22,095 nt of DNA, taken from positions 1 through 22,095 of the IMG/VR virus record IMGVR_UViG_3300009432_000043; one strand, given 5' to 3'. Under the pieces are notes generated by a model. The model made no database searches. It saw only the letters and a program-made list of their open reading frames with translations, and was not told where the DNA came from. The translations under genes and the position numbers were made by a program. This document shows, in pieces, positions 9,086 to 22,095 of this stretch (positions within the stretch are counted from its first letter, which is position 1; every line of letters starts with the position of its first letter). This DNA is from a virus.

Positions 9086-9794
9086 TATTTTCAACATCAA
9101 TCTTCCCTGTTTGCACAAACTTAACTAAACAATTAGTGTACCAACGGGCTTTACGAATGTCTTGCTCATAATCATCTTTCTTACCAGCTCGCATTAGATA
9201 CTTATAGACTTGACCGAACAAGTGGGCTTCAACTCCTGACTTGCCATCTAGCATGTATTGCATCATTTCCATGTATTGCATACCGGGAACTACGTCATTA
9301 TAGTGCTGGCCGGATACATAATGGTCTACATCTTTTTCTTTAGGTAAAGGTTCTACTTCATCTAGACTCCCAAAGGACATAATACGCATCCAGTCTTCAA
9401 ACTCTCGCTGTACAATAGGGTCTTCAAAAGAAGCGGCGTAGTCTACTTCACCTTTCACATCTGTAAGCAAAAGTGCCAAGTCTTCGGCGTATACTTCCTC
9501 TTCTCGATCTTTTAGCTCTTGTAGCTCTTCTAAAGTATAAGGGAGTGTTGCATCGTTTTTCTCTTTTACTTCTTTAGCTACCGCGTTCCACTCAGCACTT
9601 TTCTGCCTCCTTTTAGCTACCGCGTCCCACTCAGCAGGAGTTGCATCATTTAATCTACGAGCGGCTTTAGCTAGTTTGCCTTTGCTTACATCAATCATAT
9701 CACTATCCTTTTGATTATCTACAAAATCTTGTAATTCATAGCGGTGATAAGGGTCTCTCTTGTGTGCTTCATAGAAGTCAGCAATATCTGTCAT
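9078..9794 (-). CDS. DUF3310 domain protein (T7 gp1.7-like nucleotide kinase relative)
   Basis: A 238-aa protein. The last 75 residues carry the DUF3310 pattern: DHYVSG, then VEAHLFGQVYKYLMRAGKKD and DIRKARWYTNCLVKF. In T7 a domain of this type is part of gp1.7, a nucleotide kinase acting on dGMP and dTMP, so a role in nucleotide supply is plausible. The N-terminal two thirds are highly charged and coiled-coil-like, with a short internal repeat (AEWDAVAKRRQ and AEWNAVAKEVK). The start overlaps the upstream stop as TAATG. Enzymatic function is inference; DUF3310 proteins lack classical P-loops and none is seen here. Confidence 0.75.
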   Translation of the reverse strand: MTDIADFYEAHKRDPYHRYELQDFVDNQKDSDMIDVSKGKLAKAARRLNDATPAEWDAVAKRRQKSAEWNAVAKEVKEKNDATLPYTLEELQELKDREEEVYAEDLALLLTDVKGEVDYAASFEDPIVQREFEDWMRIMSFGSLDEVEPLPKEKDVDHYVSGQHYNDVVPGMQYMEMMQYMLDGKSGVEAHLFGQVYKYLMRAGKKDDYEQDIRKARWYTNCLVKFVQTGKIDVENND

Positions 9795-10051
9795 TATACA
9801 TCTCCATTATCGAATATACATTGGTCTTCATAGGGTGCTACGTATCTGCGATAGAACTCTAGGTTTGCTCCATTGAGTGCGCCTAGGATATCATTACAGT
9901 TTTGGTAGCGTTTATCTGAGTTAGCAAACATTTCTTTAATTAACACAGCGATTAAGTATTGCAACTCGCCTGCTGTCTCTGGTGGTGAAGCTTCAATTTC
10001 TTTTATTAAGAATTTAAAGTTACTACGGTCTTCGGATTTAATGTATGGCAT
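9794..10051 (-). CDS. Hypothetical protein, 85 aa
   Basis: No family recognised. The start at 10051 (MPYIKSEDRSNFKFLIKEIE) is preferred because AAAAGGAATAATAAAATG gives a proper ribosome-binding site; the upstream in-frame ATG at 10084 lies inside the preceding small gene. Helical, with a C-terminal aromatic/acidic segment (YRRYVAPYEDQCIFDNGDV). The repeated ELQYLIAVLIKEMF-type helix resembles small regulatory proteins seen in marine phages next to DUF3310 genes, but I do not assign function. Confidence 0.72.
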   Translation of the reverse strand: MPYIKSEDRSNFKFLIKEIEASPPETAGELQYLIAVLIKEMFANSDKRYQNCNDILGALNGANLEFYRRYVAPYEDQCIFDNGDV

Positions 10052-10055
10052 TTTA

Positions 10056-10181
10056 TTATTCCTTTTCTGATTTAGTAGCTTCAACTAGGTCCCAAGCAAC
10101 ATTGTGTAAATACTCAGGGGTAGTCTCTTCCGGGTTTTCCAATGCCCATACCAAGTGTTCAACGATTTCTTTTACTGACAT
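10056..10181 (-). CDS. Hypothetical protein, 41 aa
   Basis: A short frame starting at 10181, MSVKEIVEHLVWALENPEET followed by a tail ending in ATKSEKE. AGAGGCTAAGATATG supplies a ribosome-binding site and the stop lies just before the next gene's start. Amphipathic helical composition, acidic. No family recognised. The tight fit between neighbours and good translation signal argue that it is real. Confidence 0.62.
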   Translation of the reverse strand: MSVKEIVEHLVWALENPEETTPEYLHNVAWDLVEATKSEKE

Positions 10182-10191
10182 ATCTTAGCCT

Positions 10192-10644
10192 CTAGGTATA
10201 ATAGGATGCGACGGCGTCAAGTGCGTCATCGATGTCATAGAATTTCTCAGTGTAGATTGAATCGAGAAACGGGTGTGGCTTGTCATTTTTATCTGCAATC
10301 ATTATAATAATCTTGTTTTTCATATGGGCATACATAAGTTCCATACTTGTCCCAGTGCCTCTACCTGCAGAACGTCTTATATCGGCTAACACAACTGTGG
10401 ATTGAGCGATATCTTGTAAGTCTTGTTTAAAGATACGCTTAGAAATGTTCATAGACCTAACTTCATCTTCTAAGAACTCACCTACTTGATCGTGGAAAGA
10501 TACACGGCGCGTAGGGTCAAGAGTTTCAATCGCTCTATAAGAAAGAAAGGTAGTAGATTTTTCTCTCCACCCTTTCATTTCTTTAACTGATACATCTTCC
10601 ATTGAACCTGCTAAATATACATAATTTGTTTTCATAGTATTCAT
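10192..10644 (-). CDS. Nucleoside 2-deoxyribosyltransferase-like protein
   Basis: A 150-aa protein with the layout of the nucleoside 2-deoxyribosyltransferase family: N-terminal strand and glycine turn in YVYLAGSMEDV, GWREKST helix, ETLDPTRR, a central DIAQSTVVLADIR strand, then the catalytic-glutamate segment GTGTSMELMYAH and a closing strand with HPF. Family members exchange bases on deoxynucleosides or hydrolyse nucleotides, which fits nucleotide salvage or recycling of host DNA bases during replication. The start at 10644 has TTAAGGATTAATATG. The exact substrate cannot be told, and some relatives act as nucleotide sensors or toxins. Confidence 0.7.
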   Translation of the reverse strand: MNTMKTNYVYLAGSMEDVSVKEMKGWREKSTTFLSYRAIETLDPTRRVSFHDQVGEFLEDEVRSMNISKRIFKQDLQDIAQSTVVLADIRRSAGRGTGTSMELMYAHMKNKIIIMIADKNDKPHPFLDSIYTEKFYDIDDALDAVASYYT

Positions 10645-11989: not shown

Positions 11990-14317
11990 TTAACAAAATG
12001 CGAAATCAGACTCCATTATCGCATTCAAATCTAAGTTGCCTTTTGGGGGTAAAAGCTCTAAAGCGTTTACTTGGGTTAGTACATTTTCAAGAGGTTCACT
12101 GGCGTAAAAGTCTACAAAGGTCTCTCTAACTATCCTAAACATATCACTCATGTCTCCTATATGACAACCGAAGCTGTCGTGAATTACTGTAACAGGAAAG
12201 TCACAAGCTACTATGGTAGATGTTAAATGAGCTGCATCGAACGAATGCACTAGGTTAGGGGCAGCACCGGTCTTCTGTGCTCTCTTCTCTAGCTTTCTTC
12301 TTTCATACGGGCGTATAGTAAGTCGAAGGGTCTTAGGTGGGTTATAAAGCACTTTAGCTTCACCTTTCCCTTTGTACTTAGGTCTACTGCTACCTTCTTT
12401 ACAAAACCTAACTTCTAGCTGGATCTCTTTAGTGGCTTCATAAGCTTGGACTACTGGAAACCCAGTTATAGGGACATTCCACTTCAAGAACTCACCTTGA
12501 TCATTAGCTCTCTCAGCTAGTGTTCTGAACAAGTCAAGCATTGCCGCTGGTCCTTTCATATTGGAAAGTGTGGTGTCCATCAGCAAGTCGCCGAAGGGGT
12601 TAACCCATCCTTTCTCTTTAAACTTAAGCTCTTCAGACAGGGTTCGAGTATCATCAAATACTTGCTCTCTTACACCCATCTTAGTGACACCGTAGCCAAG
12701 AGTCATCACAGGTCGCTTCACAGTCTTTCGCTGAAGCTTCTTGTCAGTGGCTAGTCTCATCCAGAATGGGACAAACATGCCCTTAGTTTGCTCACGATTA
12801 TCCTTACGCCACTGGTCAAGCTCAGCAAATACAGCGTTCTTGTCTTCCTTGGTTACAGTCTTTTCCATCTTAAGTTTAATAGCTGTTACTTCTTTAATAA
12901 AGCGGTCAGCATTAGCTTTTAACTCAGGTGAGATCTCTTCGTACAACTCTGCTAGCGCTTGCCAAGTCTTCTCCGCGACGAACATATAGACGTCTCCGGG
13001 AATCTCAGTAGGCACAAGGTTAACAAGGTGAGCAACAGTATCATCAAGACTCAAAGCTGTCAGATGTTGTACACCGTTATTAGAACCGTCAATAAACAAA
13101 GGTAAAGCACTCTCGTACTCTTCTATGTTGCCTCCATACTCTAACCTTGTCTGTATGTTAGCCCACTCGAAACAACAAGCCAAGAATGACCACGACTTAT
13201 CTGCTTTAGTCCACCCGTTATTAGTGTAGGGGTCTTCAGCGTAAGCACATATGTCATCCATGTTATCTTGAACCCATTGAGCTCTACCATCTAGTGTCAG
13301 CTTGTCTTCACCCCAGCAATTCGCTGTGTGAACAGCAAACCAGTAAGCACCTTCTTCCCCTAGTGGTTTCTTGTGATCATACAAGATTAAACCTTTAGCG
13401 TTATCAGATGATTGCTCGTGTAGGTAAGAAGAGCCGGGGTAGATTCGACCTCTGAAATCACAATTGTACCTGTGATAAAATTTCTTATCTAGGAAGCCCT
13501 CTGCAATCGCAAGGATCGCATCTGCCTCCAAGTACATACCTTCTCTACTTGGCTTTCTTTCCTCCTTCTGATGTTTAAACGGCGAATCCTTATCCACAAC
13601 AAACTCACGGGAGAACACGGTTTCTCTATCTTGTTGTTTTAAAAGGGTTTTATACACAGAAAATACTTTATGGTTTATAACGTAACCTGTGGTCTGTAGC
13701 TTGTTCAAAGCATTAAGCACTATTGGACAGGTGTCTTTAGTAATGTGCTCTAGGGCTTTTGAGTTACCTCTACGGATTAACGTATGTCCGTCTATATGAT
13801 ATCCTGATTCCCAGTCAGGTGCGGCAGTAGACCGAGGGCTTTCTTCTAAGGAGGCTACATCTAACTCAGCCCATAACTCTTCAAACAAAGTCTCATCTAG
13901 CATATCAAGGTGGTAGGTAGCATTCTTAGTTCTGCTAGTGTCTTTTCCGCGTTGATGCATTTTCTCTATGCCTAATAATTTAAATCCGGCTTGAGGCTTG
14001 TCTTTATTACAATAAGCTTCTAGTATTTTTAAACCGAAATACAAAGAGATCTTAGTTTCATTTTTATCATCCTCTTTTATCCCAATGTTTCTTCTAACTT
14101 TATTACCAAGCTTTATTGCGGTTTCGGTTAGCATGGATCTACTTCTTAACGCCATTAACACTGAGCCAAGAGTCATTTCAACAATCTCAATTACAGTTTC
14201 ATTCCAGTCCATCCCTTCCTCTTCAAGGTATTCTGGAAACCACTTATTGTTATTTCTCCCGTCCTTAGTGTCTATCAGGCGTTCTGCCATGCTGTCTATA
14301 AGGCGTTGTTTCGGCAT
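11990..14317 (-). CDS. DNA-directed RNA polymerase, single-subunit T7 type
   Basis: The phage polymerase, 775 aa versus 883 for T7, the shortfall being in the N-terminal domain. Conserved catalytic landmarks are intact: DFRGRIYPG (287-295), FIDGSNNGVQHLTAL with D410 (T7 D537), KRPVMTLGYG with K534 and Y542 (T7 K631 and Y639), NLVHSFDAAHL, and VIHDSFG with H713 and D714 (T7 H811 and D812). It ends in ESDFAFC, one residue different from T7's ESDFAFA foot. The start at 14317 has CTAGGAGCAGTAAATG. The T7-like specificity residues cannot be mapped by eye, but two promoter candidates of T7 layout are in the window. Directly upstream is a 34-bp hairpin with T13, so its own expression probably depends on read-through. 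Confidence 0.97.
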   Translation of the reverse strand: MPKQRLIDSMAERLIDTKDGRNNNKWFPEYLEEEGMDWNETVIEIVEMTLGSVLMALRSRSMLTETAIKLGNKVRRNIGIKEDDKNETKISLYFGLKILEAYCNKDKPQAGFKLLGIEKMHQRGKDTSRTKNATYHLDMLDETLFEELWAELDVASLEESPRSTAAPDWESGYHIDGHTLIRRGNSKALEHITKDTCPIVLNALNKLQTTGYVINHKVFSVYKTLLKQQDRETVFSREFVVDKDSPFKHQKEERKPSREGMYLEADAILAIAEGFLDKKFYHRYNCDFRGRIYPGSSYLHEQSSDNAKGLILYDHKKPLGEEGAYWFAVHTANCWGEDKLTLDGRAQWVQDNMDDICAYAEDPYTNNGWTKADKSWSFLACCFEWANIQTRLEYGGNIEEYESALPLFIDGSNNGVQHLTALSLDDTVAHLVNLVPTEIPGDVYMFVAEKTWQALAELYEEISPELKANADRFIKEVTAIKLKMEKTVTKEDKNAVFAELDQWRKDNREQTKGMFVPFWMRLATDKKLQRKTVKRPVMTLGYGVTKMGVREQVFDDTRTLSEELKFKEKGWVNPFGDLLMDTTLSNMKGPAAMLDLFRTLAERANDQGEFLKWNVPITGFPVVQAYEATKEIQLEVRFCKEGSSRPKYKGKGEAKVLYNPPKTLRLTIRPYERRKLEKRAQKTGAAPNLVHSFDAAHLTSTIVACDFPVTVIHDSFGCHIGDMSDMFRIVRETFVDFYASEPLENVLTQVNALELLPPKGNLDLNAIMESDFAFC

Positions 14318-14340
14318 TTACTGCTCCTAGTTGGTTTAAC

Positions 14341-14451
14341 AAAAAAAAAAAAACGTCTAGCCCCCTGCCCTTACAGGTTCTATATAAAACACTAATAGCC
14401 CGAAGGCCATCAATGGATTATATAGAACCTGTAAGGACAGGGGGCTAGACG
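14341..14451 (-). terminator. 34-bp inverted repeat followed by T13, before the RNA polymerase gene
   Basis: Arms at 14354-14387 and 14418-14451 are complementary over 34 bp. The only deviation is a G-U pair in minus-strand RNA (C-A mismatch on the plus strand), so the structure is kept as minus-strand RNA. The 30-nt loop contains a second hairpin, AUGGCC-UUCG-GGCUAU. The stem is followed by 13 consecutive U residues (14353-14341). This has the form of a very strong intrinsic terminator, but it ends only 23 nt before the RNA polymerase start. It could also be an RNase III target, attenuator or a small inverted-repeat element. The right arm's end reads TATAAT on the minus strand, without a recognisable -35. 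Confidence 0.8.
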
Positions 14452-14465
14452 CTTGCGCGTGGGTG

Positions 14466-14846
14466 TTACCAATCATCGCCGACAGTTATCGTTTCTACAT
14501 TGGATGTCTTTTGTTTTTGCGCTTGACGTATTTGGACTTTAAGTAATTCAAGTTCCAATTGAGTCTTTTCTAACTTTATACGCTCTCTTGATAGCGCAAT
14601 GTCATACAGTCTTTTACAATTTAATTTAGATTGTTTCTTTTTTCCTAGCTGATAAGTGTACCTTGCTTCAAAGCTTCCTGTTTGAGTTTGTGAATCAAAG
14701 TTAGTTCCAAAGGAAACCTTTTGACCTGTGTCTTCACTTGAATTGCAACTCGTACCGTCCGAAGTTCTGACGCTGTAGTTATCAGCGAAGCCTGTGGAGG
14801 ATAAGCCGAGAGCAAACACGACTAATAATACTTGCTTTTTCATCAT
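14466..14846 (-). CDS. Exported coiled-coil protein, 126 aa
   Basis: Signal peptide MMKKQVLLVVFALGLSSTGF with likely cleavage after GFADN or GFA. The mature part has a polar region with two cysteines near the N-terminus (SDGTSCNSSED) and one at LNCKRLYD, then a long charged helix (about residues 85-115) consistent with a coiled coil, ending VETITVGDDW. The start at 14846 follows GAGGTTGGAAAAA; a longer in-frame start at 14879 would bury the signal peptide and is rejected. It overlaps the end of the chaperone-like gene by 65 nt. No family recognised. As the third gene after a pilin-like and a chaperone-like gene it may form part of one surface-acting unit. Confidence 0.72.
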   Translation of the reverse strand: MMKKQVLLVVFALGLSSTGFADNYSVRTSDGTSCNSSEDTGQKVSFGTNFDSQTQTGSFEARYTYQLGKKKQSKLNCKRLYDIALSRERIKLEKTQLELELLKVQIRQAQKQKTSNVETITVGDDW

Positions 14847-15734: not shown

Positions 15735-15783
15735 ATTATTTTCCTTTAGGATTTTAGTTTGGTTTTTCATAAGGTTTAAGATA

Positions 15784-15852
15784 TTGATTAGTATGACTTT
15801 TAATTCTTCCATATTAGATACGTACTTTTTCTCACTTTTTTGGTCTATTTTT
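15784..15852 (-). promoter_or_regulatory. Repeated leader/promoter element, copy 1
   Basis: Shares 38 identical nt (15784-15821) with 17964-18001, and further downstream an identical 18-nt block (15826-15843 against 18006-18023), followed by a matching CTATTTTT. Each copy precedes the first gene of a block. On the minus strand it contains TATCTAATATGG and AATTAAAAGTCATACTAATC. TCTAAT could serve as a -10 box but I see no -35. Likely a promoter or mRNA leader; it is not the T7-like 25-mer. Confidence 0.6.
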
Positions 15853-15969
15853 AACTATTTTTCGAGCATTAAAAATAAGCGATTTCTGCTCTCTTGTCAA
15901 AGAAGCCCATTGGTCTGGGGTGAATGTTAGATTAGCTTTCTGTCTTAAAGACAAAGATTTAATATCCAT
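15832..15969 (-). CDS. Hypothetical basic protein, 45 aa
   Basis: A 45-codon frame starting at 15969 with a TAATG overlap to the DUF1289 gene, reading MDIKSLSLRQKANLTFTPDQ then WASLTREQKSLIF and ending in a basic tail NRPKK. Helical; the WxxLTREQ pattern is typical of helix-turn-helix or ribosome-associated small proteins but gives no family. RGGAAAG-type ribosome-binding sequence (GAGGAAAGAAATAATG) precedes the start. Its stop lies inside the repeated leader element. Confidence 0.62.
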   Translation of the reverse strand: MDIKSLSLRQKANLTFTPDQWASLTREQKSLIFNARKIVKNRPKK

Positions 15970-16130
15970 TATTTCTTTCCTCTTATCTCAAGCATAATAG
16001 TTTTACGCTTTTCTTCACTGTATCTAGACCATAAGCTTATGTCTTTTAAACTCCTTCCACACCCTGTACAAGCTTGATCCTCAATATTACACAAGAGAAC
16101 ACAAGGAGAACTTATAGTAGGCAAGCTCAT
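15969..16130 (-). CDS. DUF1289 family protein, 53 aa
   Basis: Translation from 16130 gives MSLPTISSPCVLLCNIEDQA, then CTGCGRSLKDISLWSRYSEE and KRKTIMLEIR. This matches the DUF1289 pattern: SPCxxxC, CxGCGRxxxEIxxW, then a charged SxEERxxI helix. The four cysteines (10, 14, 21, 24) would bind zinc or an iron-sulfur centre. The family is common as small proteobacterial proteins of unknown function. The start overlaps the upstream stop as ATGA. It is too short for many ORF callers. A phage copy may mimic or recruit a host partner, but that is speculation. Confidence 0.85.
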   Translation of the reverse strand: MSLPTISSPCVLLCNIEDQACTGCGRSLKDISLWSRYSEEKRKTIMLEIRGKK

Positions 16131-16357
16131 ACCTCATACTCTTTTATCAGGTCTGCTTTGAACCACTTTTGACAAGCTTTAACTTGACAAGCCACTCGTG
16201 TTTCTCCGTGATTACCTGCGTGTAAGTGTACTCTCTCTTTTATTTTGCTATTAAAGAGCTTTAGTGTTTTAGATAAACCTTCTGTAGCAATCATTTTGTG
16301 TGCCAAGCTAAAGTTAATGTTACGGTAAGTCCATTCTGCAAAGTGATAAGTTTTCAT
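16127..16357 (-). CDS. Hypothetical protein, 76 aa
   Basis: Basic, soluble protein (MKTYHFAEWTYRNINFSLAH ... RVACQVKACQKWFKADLIK). Several histidines and two cysteines (CQVKAC) could bind a metal, but no family is recognised. AAAGGCGTATTAATATG supplies the start. It is the first gene downstream of hammerhead ribozyme 1 and is coupled to the DUF1289 gene by an ATGA overlap. Confidence 0.7.
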   Translation of the reverse strand: MKTYHFAEWTYRNINFSLAHKMIATEGLSKTLKLFNSKIKERVHLHAGNHGETRVACQVKACQKWFKADLIKEYEV

Positions 16358-16388
16358 ATTAATACGCCTTTATTTAAAGTAAGAATCT

Positions 16389-16441
16389 GTCTCATCAGTA
16401 TAGGTAGATTAATTCCTATAGACGCCCGAAAGCGTTTCGAC
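16389..16441 (-). ncRNA. Hammerhead ribozyme 1 (type II, stem II open)
   Basis: In minus-strand RNA the order is GUC-GAAA, stem III ACGCU(UUCG)GGCGU, the cleavage C, stem I UAUAGG / CCUAUA, then CUGAUGA-GAC. All core residues of the hammerhead (CUGAUGA, GAAA, cleavage triplet GUC) are present, and GUC/GAC closes a 3-bp stem II. Predicted cleavage falls between 16421 and 16420. The 5' side directly abuts the stop codon of the gene at 16443-16757. Loop I carries UAAUCUA, conserved in all three copies. Confidence 0.93.
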
Positions 16442-16442
16442 T

Positions 16443-16757
16443 TTATCTTTCTGTCCACGAAGTAAGCTTTCCATTTACAAACGTATAAGTAGAGTAATTT
16501 CTGTGGTTGACCCATATTGAAATTTTACCAACAGAAGTGTTAGTTGTTGATTCAAGAGCTACTAATTTCCAATTAACATAACATCGGATAAAATCTTCAT
16601 CTAATCCTAATTTTAATTCTTTAGTACCTGCAATTTCCCACAGTTGTTCACATATCTTATTTACGCTTAGATCTGAGTCATTATAGGTATTAAGGCTATT
16701 AGCAAAAGCAGAAATGGACATAAGTGAAGCGAGTACTATAATCATTAAGTTTTTCAT
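16443..16757 (-). CDS. Exported hypothetical protein, 104 aa
   Basis: Signal peptide MKNLMIIVLASLMSISAFA with cleavage before NSLN. The mature part is about 85 aa with two cysteines (NKICEQLW and IRCYVNW) likely to pair in the periplasm, and a beta-rich end (STYTFVNGKLTSWTER). No family recognised; the pattern resembles the exported proteins encoded at 6464-6817 in size and layout. The ribosome-binding sequence is AGAGAGAGAATATG. Its stop codon sits directly against hammerhead ribozyme 1. Confidence 0.72.
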   Translation of the reverse strand: MKNLMIIVLASLMSISAFANSLNTYNDSDLSVNKICEQLWEIAGTKELKLGLDEDFIRCYVNWKLVALESTTNTSVGKISIWVNHRNYSTYTFVNGKLTSWTER

Positions 16758-16766
16758 ATTCTCTCT

Positions 16767-16955
16767 CTATTTATTAAACAAGTCTAACTGATTGCCATCA
16801 ACAAGGAACATACTTGCTTTTAAACACTCAATCATTCGTTGGCTGTCTTTAATGTCTCCTTCAAGAAACTCAATCTGTCTTGCTATTCCACGGATTTGAG
16901 CTGTTCTTGAATTCATTATACTTTTAATTTTAAAGTCTTTCCACCAGTTTATCAT
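16767..16955 (-). CDS. Hypothetical helical protein, 62 aa
   Basis: Starts MINWWKDFKIKSIMNSRTAQ and continues with an arginine/glutamate-rich helix of coiled-coil character (IRGIARQIEFLEGDIKDS) before a short tail LDLFNK. No membrane segment, no family recognised. The ATG at 16955 overlaps the stop of the 44-aa membrane protein as ATGA, and AAGGACTATCATTATG gives a usable ribosome-binding site. Confidence 0.68.
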   Translation of the reverse strand: MINWWKDFKIKSIMNSRTAQIRGIARQIEFLEGDIKDSQRMIECLKASMFLVDGNQLDLFNK

Positions 16956-17086
16956 AATGATAGTCCTTGAGCGTGATGTTGGCTTATTAGATCAACAAAA
17001 TATAATGCAGTTAAAACACCTGAAAGAGCGCCTACACCAATTATAGACATTCCGATTACTTCAATAACTTTGTCACTTATATTCAT
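16952..17086 (-). CDS. Tiny membrane protein, 44 aa
   Basis: A frame from 17086 reads MNISDKVIEVIGMSIIGVGA then LSGVLTALYFVDLIS and ends QHHAQGLSL. One hydrophobic helix with glycine-rich core, no signal cleavage site. The stop overlaps the next start as ATGA. The ribosome-binding site is weak (TATGGTATATTAAAATG), which lowers confidence, but the frame fills an otherwise empty gap. First gene after hammerhead ribozyme 2. Confidence 0.55.
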   Translation of the reverse strand: MNISDKVIEVIGMSIIGVGALSGVLTALYFVDLISQHHAQGLSL

Positions 17087-17116
17087 TTTAATATACCATA
17101 TTTAATTTAAGAATCT

Positions 17117-17169
17117 GTCTCATCAGCACATGTAGATTAGTTCATGTGGACGCCCGAAGGCGTTTCGAC
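17117..17169 (-). ncRNA. Hammerhead ribozyme 2 (type II, stem II open)
   Basis: Same architecture as the other copies but with compensating changes: stem I is CACAUG / CAUGUG instead of UAUAGG / CCUAUA, and stem III is ACGCC-UUCG-GGCGU. Core GUC-GAAA, CUGAUGA and cleavage GUC are intact. Predicted cleavage is between 17149 and 17148. It begins at the base after the stop codon of the metallopeptidase-like gene. Confidence 0.95.
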
Positions 17170-17556
17170 TTATTTAGCTTTACAAGCAAATGTAACATTA
17201 GCATTAGCAGCTTCAGCAATCATCTTACAAGCTTTTTTGAATGCTGTACCGTGACGGTGTGAAGCCTTACCTGTTTCATTTTTAACGTGAATGTGAGCAA
17301 GTTCGTGAACAAGGATGTCTGCTCTTTTGTGAGGACGAACTTCTTTGAATTCAGGCTTGTTAATGAAGATGTAGCTTTTACCAGAAGTCTTACCGAAAGC
17401 AGCGTAAGCAATAGTGTCTATGCCGTGAGTTTTAACAATAACAGTAGCAGACTTAATACCAGCTTTCTCAGCAATAGCGTCAACAGTAGCTTGGTGATCG
17501 TCAGCAGTAGCAGAGTTAGCGAATAATACAACAGCGATAGCGATAATAAATTTCAT
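17170..17556 (-). CDS. Exported SprT-like zinc metallopeptidase, 128 aa
   Basis: Signal peptide MKFIIAIAVVLFANSATA, cleaved before DDHQ. The mature protein contains a zincin motif VHELAHIH (HExxH) followed after about 13 residues by SHRHGTAFKKAC, in which a histidine-glycine pair can supply the third ligand, as in SprT-type and related small zincins. Two late cysteines (KKAC, FACKAK) may pair. The start at 17556 is preferred because CTAAAGGAAACTATTATG is a proper ribosome-binding site; the upstream in-frame ATG at 17589 lies inside the CUGAUGA core of ribozyme 3. A periplasmic protease, for example for envelope modification or exclusion, is inferred. Confidence 0.78.
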   Translation of the reverse strand: MKFIIAIAVVLFANSATADDHQATVDAIAEKAGIKSATVIVKTHGIDTIAYAAFGKTSGKSYIFINKPEFKEVRPHKRADILVHELAHIHVKNETGKASHRHGTAFKKACKMIAEAANANVTFACKAK

Positions 17557-17582
17557 AATAGTTTCCTTTAGTTTAAGAATCT

Positions 17583-17637
17583 GTCTCATCAGTATAGGTA
17601 GATTAGTGCCTATAGACGCCCAGGGGAGCGTTTCGAC
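17583..17637 (-). ncRNA. Hammerhead ribozyme 3 (type II, stem II open)
   Basis: Core identical to the other copies. Stem I is UAUAGG / CCUAUA with loop CACUAAUCUA; stem III is extended to ACGCUC-CCCU-GGGCGU, so its tip differs while its base pairs are kept. Predicted cleavage is between 17615 and 17614. It starts directly after the stop codon of the gene at 17638-17940 and ends 27 nt before the metallopeptidase-like start. Confidence 0.93.
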
Positions 17638-17940
17638 TTATGCTACGATTGTAGCTTCTTCAATCATATTGCCTAACTCAAGGTTCATTTGAGCCATAGG
17701 GACAACATATTCAATGTGGTTAAGTTCAGTAGTCTCACCGAAAGCAACACCACGGTAAGCATTAAGGTCACGATCTAAAACAAGTTTAACAACAACACGA
17801 CCGTCTAACTGGTAACCCTTTGCAACTTCCAAGCTGTCTGCCCAGTAAGAAACACGAGTGCCATTAGAGATTGTATCAGTAGCAATTAGTTTGTCAGCTT
17901 CTAACTTGCTCATAGCGCGATAGTAAGTATAAGTGTTCAT
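17638..17940 (-). CDS. Hypothetical protein, 100 aa (possible ADP-ribosyltransferase-like fold)
   Basis: Opens MNTYTYYRAMSKLEADKLIA, then shows VSYWADSLEVAKGYQLDGRV followed by VVKLVLDR. The pattern YRAMS-E-L ... W-S-E-A-Y ... V-K-V-L is the sort seen in small ADP-ribosyltransferase-like or phosphotransferase-like folds, where the first arginine and later tyrosine/serine matter. I cannot confirm a catalytic glutamate: the late segment GNMIEEATIVA contains a glutamate pair that might serve. First gene of the block that follows the leader repeat, with CTAAAGGAAGTCTTTATG as ribosome-binding site. If enzymatic it could modify host proteins early, as phage ADP-ribosyltransferases do; this remains a weak guess. 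Confidence 0.7.
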   Translation of the reverse strand: MNTYTYYRAMSKLEADKLIATDTISNGTRVSYWADSLEVAKGYQLDGRVVVKLVLDRDLNAYRGVAFGETTELNHIEYVVPMAQMNLELGNMIEEATIVA

Positions 17941-17963
17941 AAAGACTTCCTTTAGGTAAGTAT

Positions 17964-18032
17964 TTGATTAGTATGACTTTTAATTCTTCCATATTAGATA
18001 CATCATTTTTCTCACTTTTTTGGGCTATTTTT
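17964..18032 (-). promoter_or_regulatory. Repeated leader/promoter element, copy 2
   Basis: Second copy of the element at 15784-15852, with 38 identical nt at 17964-18001 and an identical 18-nt block at 18006-18023. It begins a few bases after the terminator that closes the lysis operon and leads into the ribozyme-containing block, which is where a new promoter is needed. Type of polymerase is unresolved. Confidence 0.6.
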
Positions 18033-18036
18033 TGAT

Positions 18037-18070
18037 AAAAAATCCCCCTCCAGATTTCTCTGAAAGGGGA
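18037..18070 (-). terminator. Intrinsic terminator after the holin gene
   Basis: Minus-strand RNA pairs UCCCCUUUCAGA with UCUGGAGGGGGA (12 base pairs, two of them U-G) around a GAAA loop, followed by UUUUUU. The wobble pairs exist only in minus-strand RNA. It lies 7 nt past the holin stop and closes the lysis/structural transcript. Confidence 0.88.
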
Positions 18071-20812: not shown

Positions 20813-22095
20813 TATTGTTTCTCCAAGTTATTTAATTTGTTTTCTAAATCTTCTACTTTCTTAGTCAATTCTTTAACCGCTTCAATAAGCAAAGGAGTTA
20901 GTTTCTCATACATTACAGTTTTGTAATCTTGACCTATAGCAGATTTAGTTACAATTTCAGGTAATACTGATTCAACTTCTTGAGCAGAAACACCTACTTC
21001 TAATCCTTCAGCTTTTACACCAAGCAATTTAGCTGTTTCATTAGGAGTATAGTAATAACCATTAAGCTTATTTACTTTATCTAGTGCATTAGGAATAGTA
21101 CCACTAAAGTCTTTTAAGCGTTCATCAGAGAAGAACGAGGTAATATTACCCGTAGCAACAATATCACCAACAACATGAAGCACTTTTGAGGGGGTAGAGG
21201 TACCTATGCCGACATAGTTGTTTGCGCTATCAATGCGCATAGTTTCGCCATTTGAACCTTGGGAGAAGACTATGTCTGCATCCAATGATGCACCAGCGCT
21301 TCCAAGTAAAAATACCTCGCCATTATAAGCTTGAAGAGAGGCAGTAGTGCTTACAGTGTTTGTATTAGTAACTGCAATTCCAACAGCGGAAGCAGAGCTT
21401 TTGCTAGTATAAAGACCAGTAGCTGAAATATTTCCTACTACTTCAAGACTGTCAATTGGAGCATCAGTACCTACACCTACATAACCAGTAGTGCCGTCTA
21501 CATAGAGAGAATTAGTACTAACATTAGATTCAATTCTATGGTTAATAGTGTCGCCTGATTCATTAAAAGTAGTATCATTTTGAGACATCTTCATGCGGTT
21601 ACGCATATTACCGTTTCTAGCAACTTGAATTTTAAAGAAACCACTCTCATTAGTAGTACCAGAATTAGCTATTTGAGTAGTAAACTCAACGTATTCAACA
21701 GTAGCACCTGCACTATCCTTGCCTACAGATTGTATTTTACCAAGAACATCGCCATTTGATGGACTTGCTGATTCTCTTTCCATTCGGAAAACAGGACCAC
21801 TAAGGTCATCATCATCTGTGCTTTTAAGAACTAACTGAGCAGTGTTGTCATCGGTTGTAATAGTAACCGTATCTGTAAAGGTAGGGTTATCAATGACGCT
21901 TACTGTGCTAATACCTGCGTCTTCAGCTATAGAAATATTAGTACCTTCTGCAACTGCGGCGGCGTTTCCTTGAAGCCCTTGAAGTCCTATAAGACCTTGG
22001 GGACCAATTTCACCTTGAGCGCCTACATCGCCTTGAAGACCTATAAGGCCCTGAAGACCAATTCCACCTTGAGCGCCTACATCGCCTTGAGCGCC
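20812..22095 (-). CDS. Collagen-like tail fibre with C-terminal S74 intramolecular chaperone (5' end outside window)
   Basis: The visible 427 aa continue in frame to the right edge, so the start is missing. It opens with collagen-like Gly-X-Y triplets (about 44 residues: GAQGDVGAQGGIGLQG and similar), then a beta-rich shaft with two VGIGTxxP-type repeats (YVGVGTDAPIDSLEV and YVGIGTSTPSKVLHV). It ends with a peptidase S74 domain: FFSDERLKDFSG, where the Ser-Asp pair (Ser at about visible residue 323) is the self-cleavage site; LEVGVSAQEVESVLPEIV and KLTPLLIEAVKEL follow; a final coiled coil closes the protein. S74 domains trimerise the fibre and are then cut off. It is the host-recognition fibre or part of it. 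Confidence 0.92.
   Translation of the reverse strand, partial: GAQGDVGAQGGIGLQGLIGLQGDVGAQGEIGPQGLIGLQGLQGNAAAVAEGTNISIAEDAGISTVSVIDNPTFTDTVTITTDDNTAQLVLKSTDDDDLSGPVFRMERESASPSNGDVLGKIQSVGKDSAGATVEYVEFTTQIANSGTTNESGFFKIQVARNGNMRNRMKMSQNDTTFNESGDTINHRIESNVSTNSLYVDGTTGYVGVGTDAPIDSLEVVGNISATGLYTSKSSASAVGIAVTNTNTVSTTASLQAYNGEVFLLGSAGASLDADIVFSQGSNGETMRIDSANNYVGIGTSTPSKVLHVVGDIVATGNITSFFSDERLKDFSGTIPNALDKVNKLNGYYYTPNETAKLLGVKAEGLEVGVSAQEVESVLPEIVTKSAIGQDYKTVMYEKLTPLLIEAVKELTKKVEDLENKLNNLEKQ
21968..22095 (-). repeat. Gly-X-Y coding repeats in the tail fibre gene
   Basis: A block of near-identical 18- to 63-bp units (for example GTAGGCGCTCAAGGT and GGTCTTCAAGGCGAT) encodes G-A-Q-G-x-x-G-L-Q triplets. 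It continues past the right edge. Such DNA repeats change number readily, giving fibre length variation. Confidence 0.85.

Follow-up and report, generated by a model that had tools for sequence, protein, structure and literature searches.

An array of three type II hammerhead ribozymes at the gene borders of a phage with T7-like replication and transcription genes

Introduction

Multiple hammerhead ribozymes are known to flank single genes or short gene blocks in prophages, including a triple array that is cleaved both in vitro and in E. coli (Perreault et al. 2011, PMC3088659). Cleavage of such prophage arrays was recorded in three cases in vitro and in one in E. coli, and the inference drawn from these arrays, that the ribozymes dice mRNA, is the same as that proposed here (PMC3088659). 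A pseudoknot between loop I and the 3' tail is present in most type II hammerheads, that is, in a majority of them and not universally, and is required for fast cleavage as demonstrated by mutation and compensation (PMC3088659). The role of hammerheads in phages has been called an open question (PMC6155905).

The window analyzed here, i.e. the whole stretch of DNA under study, is a 22,095-base linear IMG/VR record of a phage with T7-like replication and transcription genes: a single-subunit RNA polymerase gene at 11990-14317 (PF00940, E=2.4e-79), a family A DNA polymerase and a DnaB-like helicase with a Toprim domain. Its relatives include the loci L134 (polymerase 87% identical) and L131 (98%); comparison of the ribozyme region with known phages found no nucleotide similarity. 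At the far edge of the window (21977-22095), there are tandem imperfect 18-nt/54-nt repeats, in the reading direction of a collagen-like or tail-fibre-like gene. The three ribozymes (HH1-HH3) lie at the borders of consecutive small genes, and the genes that flank them (A-H) are all encoded on the minus strand:

18043-18070, minus: intrinsic terminator-like hairpin (-20.3 kcal/mol, z -2.6), just upstream of the 17957-18032 repeat
17957-18032, minus: 76-nt repeat, copy 1 (91% identical to the other copy; 98.6% in L134)
17638-17940, minus: gene A, 100 aa, its stop codon immediately adjoining HH3
17578-17637, minus: HH3, between genes A and B; core 17583-17637, pseudoknot tail AGAUU 17578-17582, predicted cut 17615/17614
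17170-17556, minus: gene B, 128 aa, SprT-like metallopeptidase (PF10263, E=2.3e-7)
17112-17169, minus: HH2, between genes B and C; core 17117-17169, pseudoknot tail 17112-17116, predicted cut 17149/17148
16952-17086, minus: gene C, between HH2 and HH1
16767-16955, minus: gene D, between HH2 and HH1
16443-16757, minus: gene E, between HH2 and HH1
16384-16441, minus: HH1, between genes E and F; core 16389-16441, pseudoknot tail 16384-16388, predicted cut 16421/16420
16127-16357, minus: gene F, 3' of HH1
15969-16130, minus: gene G, 3' of HH1
15832-15969, minus: gene H, 3' of HH1
15777-15852, minus: 76-nt repeat, copy 2 (91% identical to the copy at 17957-18032)

Searches of Pfam and PHROG with the gene A protein matched nothing. 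The gene B protein contains a HELAH motif and a signal-like N terminus, and no other locations of this gene were found in viral contigs.

Structure and conservation of the ribozymes

The three elements are near-identical repeats of 58-60 nt each that contain, in order along the minus strand, GUC (the 5' strand of stem II), the GAAA core, stem III, C17, stem I, CUGAUGA and GAC (the 3' strand of stem II). The permutation is that of the type II hammerheads: stems I and III are closed by loops, the 3-bp stem II is open, and both hairpins lie between its strands, with stem I consisting of 6 bp and a 10-nt loop. The type II core (C3 U4 G5 A6 N7 G8 A9 / G12 A13 A14 / A15.1-U16.1 / H17) is intact in all three copies. 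A descriptor that combines a perfect type II core with stems I, II and III of at least 4, 2 and 4 bp, respectively, identifies HH1-HH3 and no other site in the window, and 1.37 Mb of shuffled locus DNA contains no match; no type I or type III hammerheads were detected by descriptor in the window, L131 or L134.

In each copy, the AAUCU of loop I is complementary to an AGAUU located right after stem II. This pairing is the predicted loop I/3'-tail pseudoknot that characterizes type II hammerheads, and the loop UAAUCUA is fixed among the copies because its AAUCU pairs with the AGAUU tail. The first-pass annotation of this DNA had correctly noted the fixed loop but overlooked the pseudoknot as its cause, the tail being located beyond the coordinates that it gave. 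For the same reason, its element extents hold for the cores and not for the 3' ends, each element being at least 5 nt longer owing to the tail.

Conservation of the pairing was assessed on 29 distinct phage sequences that share this geometry. In this set, changes on both sides affect every one of the six stem I pairs and, in the pseudoknot, three pairs out of five; 97.8% of the cells are paired, and the covariation score is 0.856, compared with 0.194 in shuffles. The covariation is decisive. The core, the descriptor and the covariation uphold the identification of intergenic, coding-strand type II hammerheads in a phage, and the sequences, core coordinates and cut positions first predicted (16421/16420, 17149/17148 and 17615/17614) are exact. 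We identify HH1-HH3 as canonical type II hammerhead ribozymes, for which self-cleavage is predicted.

The Rfam scores have to be weighed against this evidence. The Hammerhead_II family (RF02276) has a gathering score of 37 bits; HH3 scores 33.9 bits (E=1.5e-4), under this value, and HH1 and HH2 fall below the reporting level and are not listed. None of the Rfam families searched over the whole window reaches gathering. The first-pass annotation had called for such a search and named the lack of an above-threshold match as the outcome that would count against it, which, by the letter, is what was found. The gathering score is, however, a curated detection threshold rather than a structural requirement, and the structural evidence is the stronger of the two; other phages have sequences sharing this loop and tail that do pass RF02276 (39.3 bits in the L124 record and 40.2 bits in the L128 record). 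Scores under the cut-off, the near-identity of the copies and the uneven occupancy of the sites among relatives are all compatible with inactive relics, i.e. degenerate hammerhead repeats that spread with the neighboring genes and do not cleave. Such a status is very unlikely for elements in which every core position is intact, the stems change yet stay paired and the pseudoknot is retained in all copies.

The folding energies of the isolated 53-nt cores are not significant (z -0.6 to -1.4), and therefore, the folding energy is no evidence in either direction. The minimum-energy fold of the HH1 core alone is not a hammerhead; when the tail is added, the hammerhead stems become the minimum-energy fold.

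Position between translated genes

Stem II of HH3 begins right after the stop codon of gene A and that of HH2 right after the stop codon of gene B, and the gene E stop ends one base before HH1, so that all three copies are situated on the coding strand, at stop/start junctions of minus-strand genes. The same placement is seen across viral contigs: among 183 distinct type II hammerheads, an open-frame stop ends 3-12 nt 5' of G12 in 139, compared with 26 of 351 random same-strand positions, and no stop of an open frame occurs at offsets -2 to +10 from G12 (0/183). On the other side, a ribosome-site-like motif and a start codon are found no more than 80 nt downstream in 156 of the 183 hammerheads vs 196 of 620 random stretches. 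Taken together, these statistics indicate that, on the mRNA strand, the ribozyme takes up the space separating one translated gene from the next. The position of the upstream stop, which adjoins stem II in most of the phage copies, is a strong, testable handle, if a modest addition to what is known of these elements.

The array is flanked on both sides by the 76-nt repeats, which probably represent the promoter (plus leader) of the phage RNA polymerase, as we infer, with the copy at 17957-18032 serving the ribozyme unit and the copy at 15777-15852 serving the next one. The repeat is also present at 7556-7627 in L134 and at 969-1044 in L131; it is unusually conserved (up to 98.6%) and starts units of small genes. 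A separate feature of the minus strand is a hairpin at 14340-14480, between gene K (14466-14837) and the RNA polymerase gene. Its stem of 37 bp continues with a further 11 bp (-91.4 kcal/mol, z -14.8), and 13 consecutive U residues come after it. The hairpin could be a strong terminator or an RNase III-type site, and L134 has a similar long hairpin at the equivalent place (~9850-9970).

Proposed dicing of a polycistronic transcript

The most likely role of HH1-HH3, and a highly probable one, would be the co-transcriptional dicing of one polycistronic phage transcript by self-cleavage. Under this scheme, the transcript probably begins near the repeat at 17957-18032. In the nascent RNA, each element would fold, forming stems I, II and III along with the loop I/tail pseudoknot, and cut after C17, to yield the A, B, C-D-E and F-G-H mRNAs, that is, pieces of one to three genes. 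The 3' end of each upstream mRNA would be located 21-23 nt past the stop codon and would consist of the stem III hairpin with a 2',3'-cyclic phosphate, and the 5' end of each downstream mRNA would carry a 5'-hydroxyl and the stem I hairpin, followed by a short leader with the ribosome site. Hairpins would cap both ends, and the decay and expression of neighboring genes could become uncoupled. Counting against an assumption of activity, 4 of 18 consensus hammerheads were inactive in vitro (Perreault et al., PMC3088659).

Tandem copies of one ribozyme could, in principle, also free and ligate the RNA between them, releasing small circular or spliced RNAs in the manner of viroid-like or retrozyme systems; the gene B interval, bounded by HH3 and HH2, would be one example. 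The intervals here are translated genes, however, and such products were sought for phage arrays by Perreault et al. and none were detected (PMC3088659), which makes this explanation extremely improbable.

Mosaic junctions and gene exchange

The relatives differ in both the ribozymes and the adjoining genes. L134 lacks gene B, and a single hammerhead comes after gene A. The left part of this hammerhead (end of gene A, stem III CGCUC...UGGGCG) resembles HH3, and the right part (stem I CACAUG, leader ATATGGTATATTAAAATG) resembles HH2. Such a chimera is what a recombination event joining HH3 to HH2 would be expected to produce, or else might represent the state before gene B came with a second copy. 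This naturally occurring chimera, combining two ribozymes at a junction of gene gain or loss, is a testable handle and a modest addition. HH1 and HH2 are not essential to this type of phage because both positions are without a ribozyme in L134. In L131, the HH1 site has an HH2-type stem I allele; gene E survives as a remnant of its end, and both neighboring genes are different ones.

Homology ends at the 5' edge of the ribozyme in another two groups of phages: in the first (L036, L038, L043 and L055), the ribozyme and the downstream gene are conserved and the upstream gene differs, and in the second (L032 and L120), the two loci differ by an indel adjoining the ribozyme. Overall, breakpoints were found at 14 of 18 hammerhead junctions vs 158 of 294 other junctions (p=0.053) and, with junctions matched by width, at 7 of 7 vs 31 of 75 (p=0.003), all of these being small counts from partly redundant, related loci. 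The excess of breakpoints at hammerhead junctions is suggestive.

Being near-identical repeats at gene borders, the copies also act, at least passively, as joints for gene exchange. Whether the ribozymes are kept mainly as recombination joints, for the gain, loss and shuffling of accessory genes, with dicing only rendering a new neighbor harmless, is a different matter. The L134 chimera that lacks gene B, the allele swap in L131 with both flanking genes different, the junctions of the two further groups and the breakpoint counts all point in that direction, but phage mosaics break at gene borders anyway, the elements are at gene borders by construction, and the counts are small and come from redundant, related loci. 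Furthermore, compensatory RNA pairing is conserved, including that of the pseudoknot, whereas a DNA joint would need none. Maintenance primarily for recombination is, accordingly, distinctly unlikely.

A combined role is possible, and we propose it tentatively: the arrays would be exchange joints in which each ribozyme is both the homology for gene swaps and the cutter that gives the new gene its own mRNA. If so, insulation by self-cleavage would make the region tolerant of gene turnover. In the (mostly open-access) literature searched, there was no paper that connects the hammerheads of phages with recombination or with T7-like phages. What is fresh in this analysis is confined to the recombination-joint angle, which is only moderately supported.

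L131 shows two other rearrangements. At 162-679, a hammerhead lies between two small genes whose proteins look, by eye, like paralogues (MKFIKKxLK..., ending CxSYK or CSEYK), an arrangement that would fit duplication of a gene around the ribozyme. At 9522-10194, a 673-nt insertion that the window and L134 lack interrupts the DNA polymerase gene after residue 455; the insertion matches a group I intron with 32.9 bits (below the gathering score of 50) and contains a 163-aa ORF resembling an HNH/endonuclease VII-type homing nuclease.

Comparison with known hammerhead arrays and other systems

A run of three related copies had initially been taken as unusual, which is refuted by the described prophage arrays (PMC3088659) and by the pattern scan of viral contigs. 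The scan matched at least 120 stretches and gave 119 loci with a descriptor hit, 14 of which, among the matches listed, hold three to eight copies; in whole viral records, up to 8 copies are found by RF02276. A connection of hammerhead arrays with T7-like polymerases that outrun ribosomes was considered and rejected as a general rule: PF00940 is present in only 3 of 50 hammerhead-bearing viral records of at least 20 kb, some of which, being fragments, may hide it. In DSS3_VP1, the cultured phage nearest by RNA polymerase (39% identity), no type II hammerhead was found.

HH1-HH3 share with the type II hammerheads of RF02276 and Perreault et al. the core, the short open stem II, the closed stems I and III and the loop I/3'-tail pseudoknot, and differ from those of RF02276 in being AU-richer, in the AAUCU/AGAUU loop/tail pair and in scoring just below the Rfam cut-off. 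The triple array around ardA of Agrobacterium tumefaciens similarly consists of several coding-strand hammerheads that flank single genes or short blocks (PMC3088659); the window differs in having a T7-like RNA polymerase, no integrase among the genes examined, and flanking genes that are SprT-like or without a match. Among cultured phages, the stretches examined contain two type II hammerheads in Roseobacter phage CRP-212, three in Streptomyces R4 and one in Anoxybacillus A403; these are also located on the coding strand in regions of small genes, but the phages are unrelated and the loop/tail pairs are different.

A functional parallel comes from the mRNAs of phage T7, in which RNase III processing sites accomplish such hairpin capping and the uncoupling of neighboring genes. 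Like these sites, the ribozymes would act between genes, severing the polycistronic transcripts made by a phage polymerase and leaving hairpins at the ends; cleavage at the T7 sites is, however, protein-catalysed, whereas a hammerhead cuts itself, leaving 2',3'-cyclic phosphate and 5'-hydroxyl ends. The ribozymes of this phage are one more case of a known element class in a known arrangement, with the pseudoknot completing the identification.
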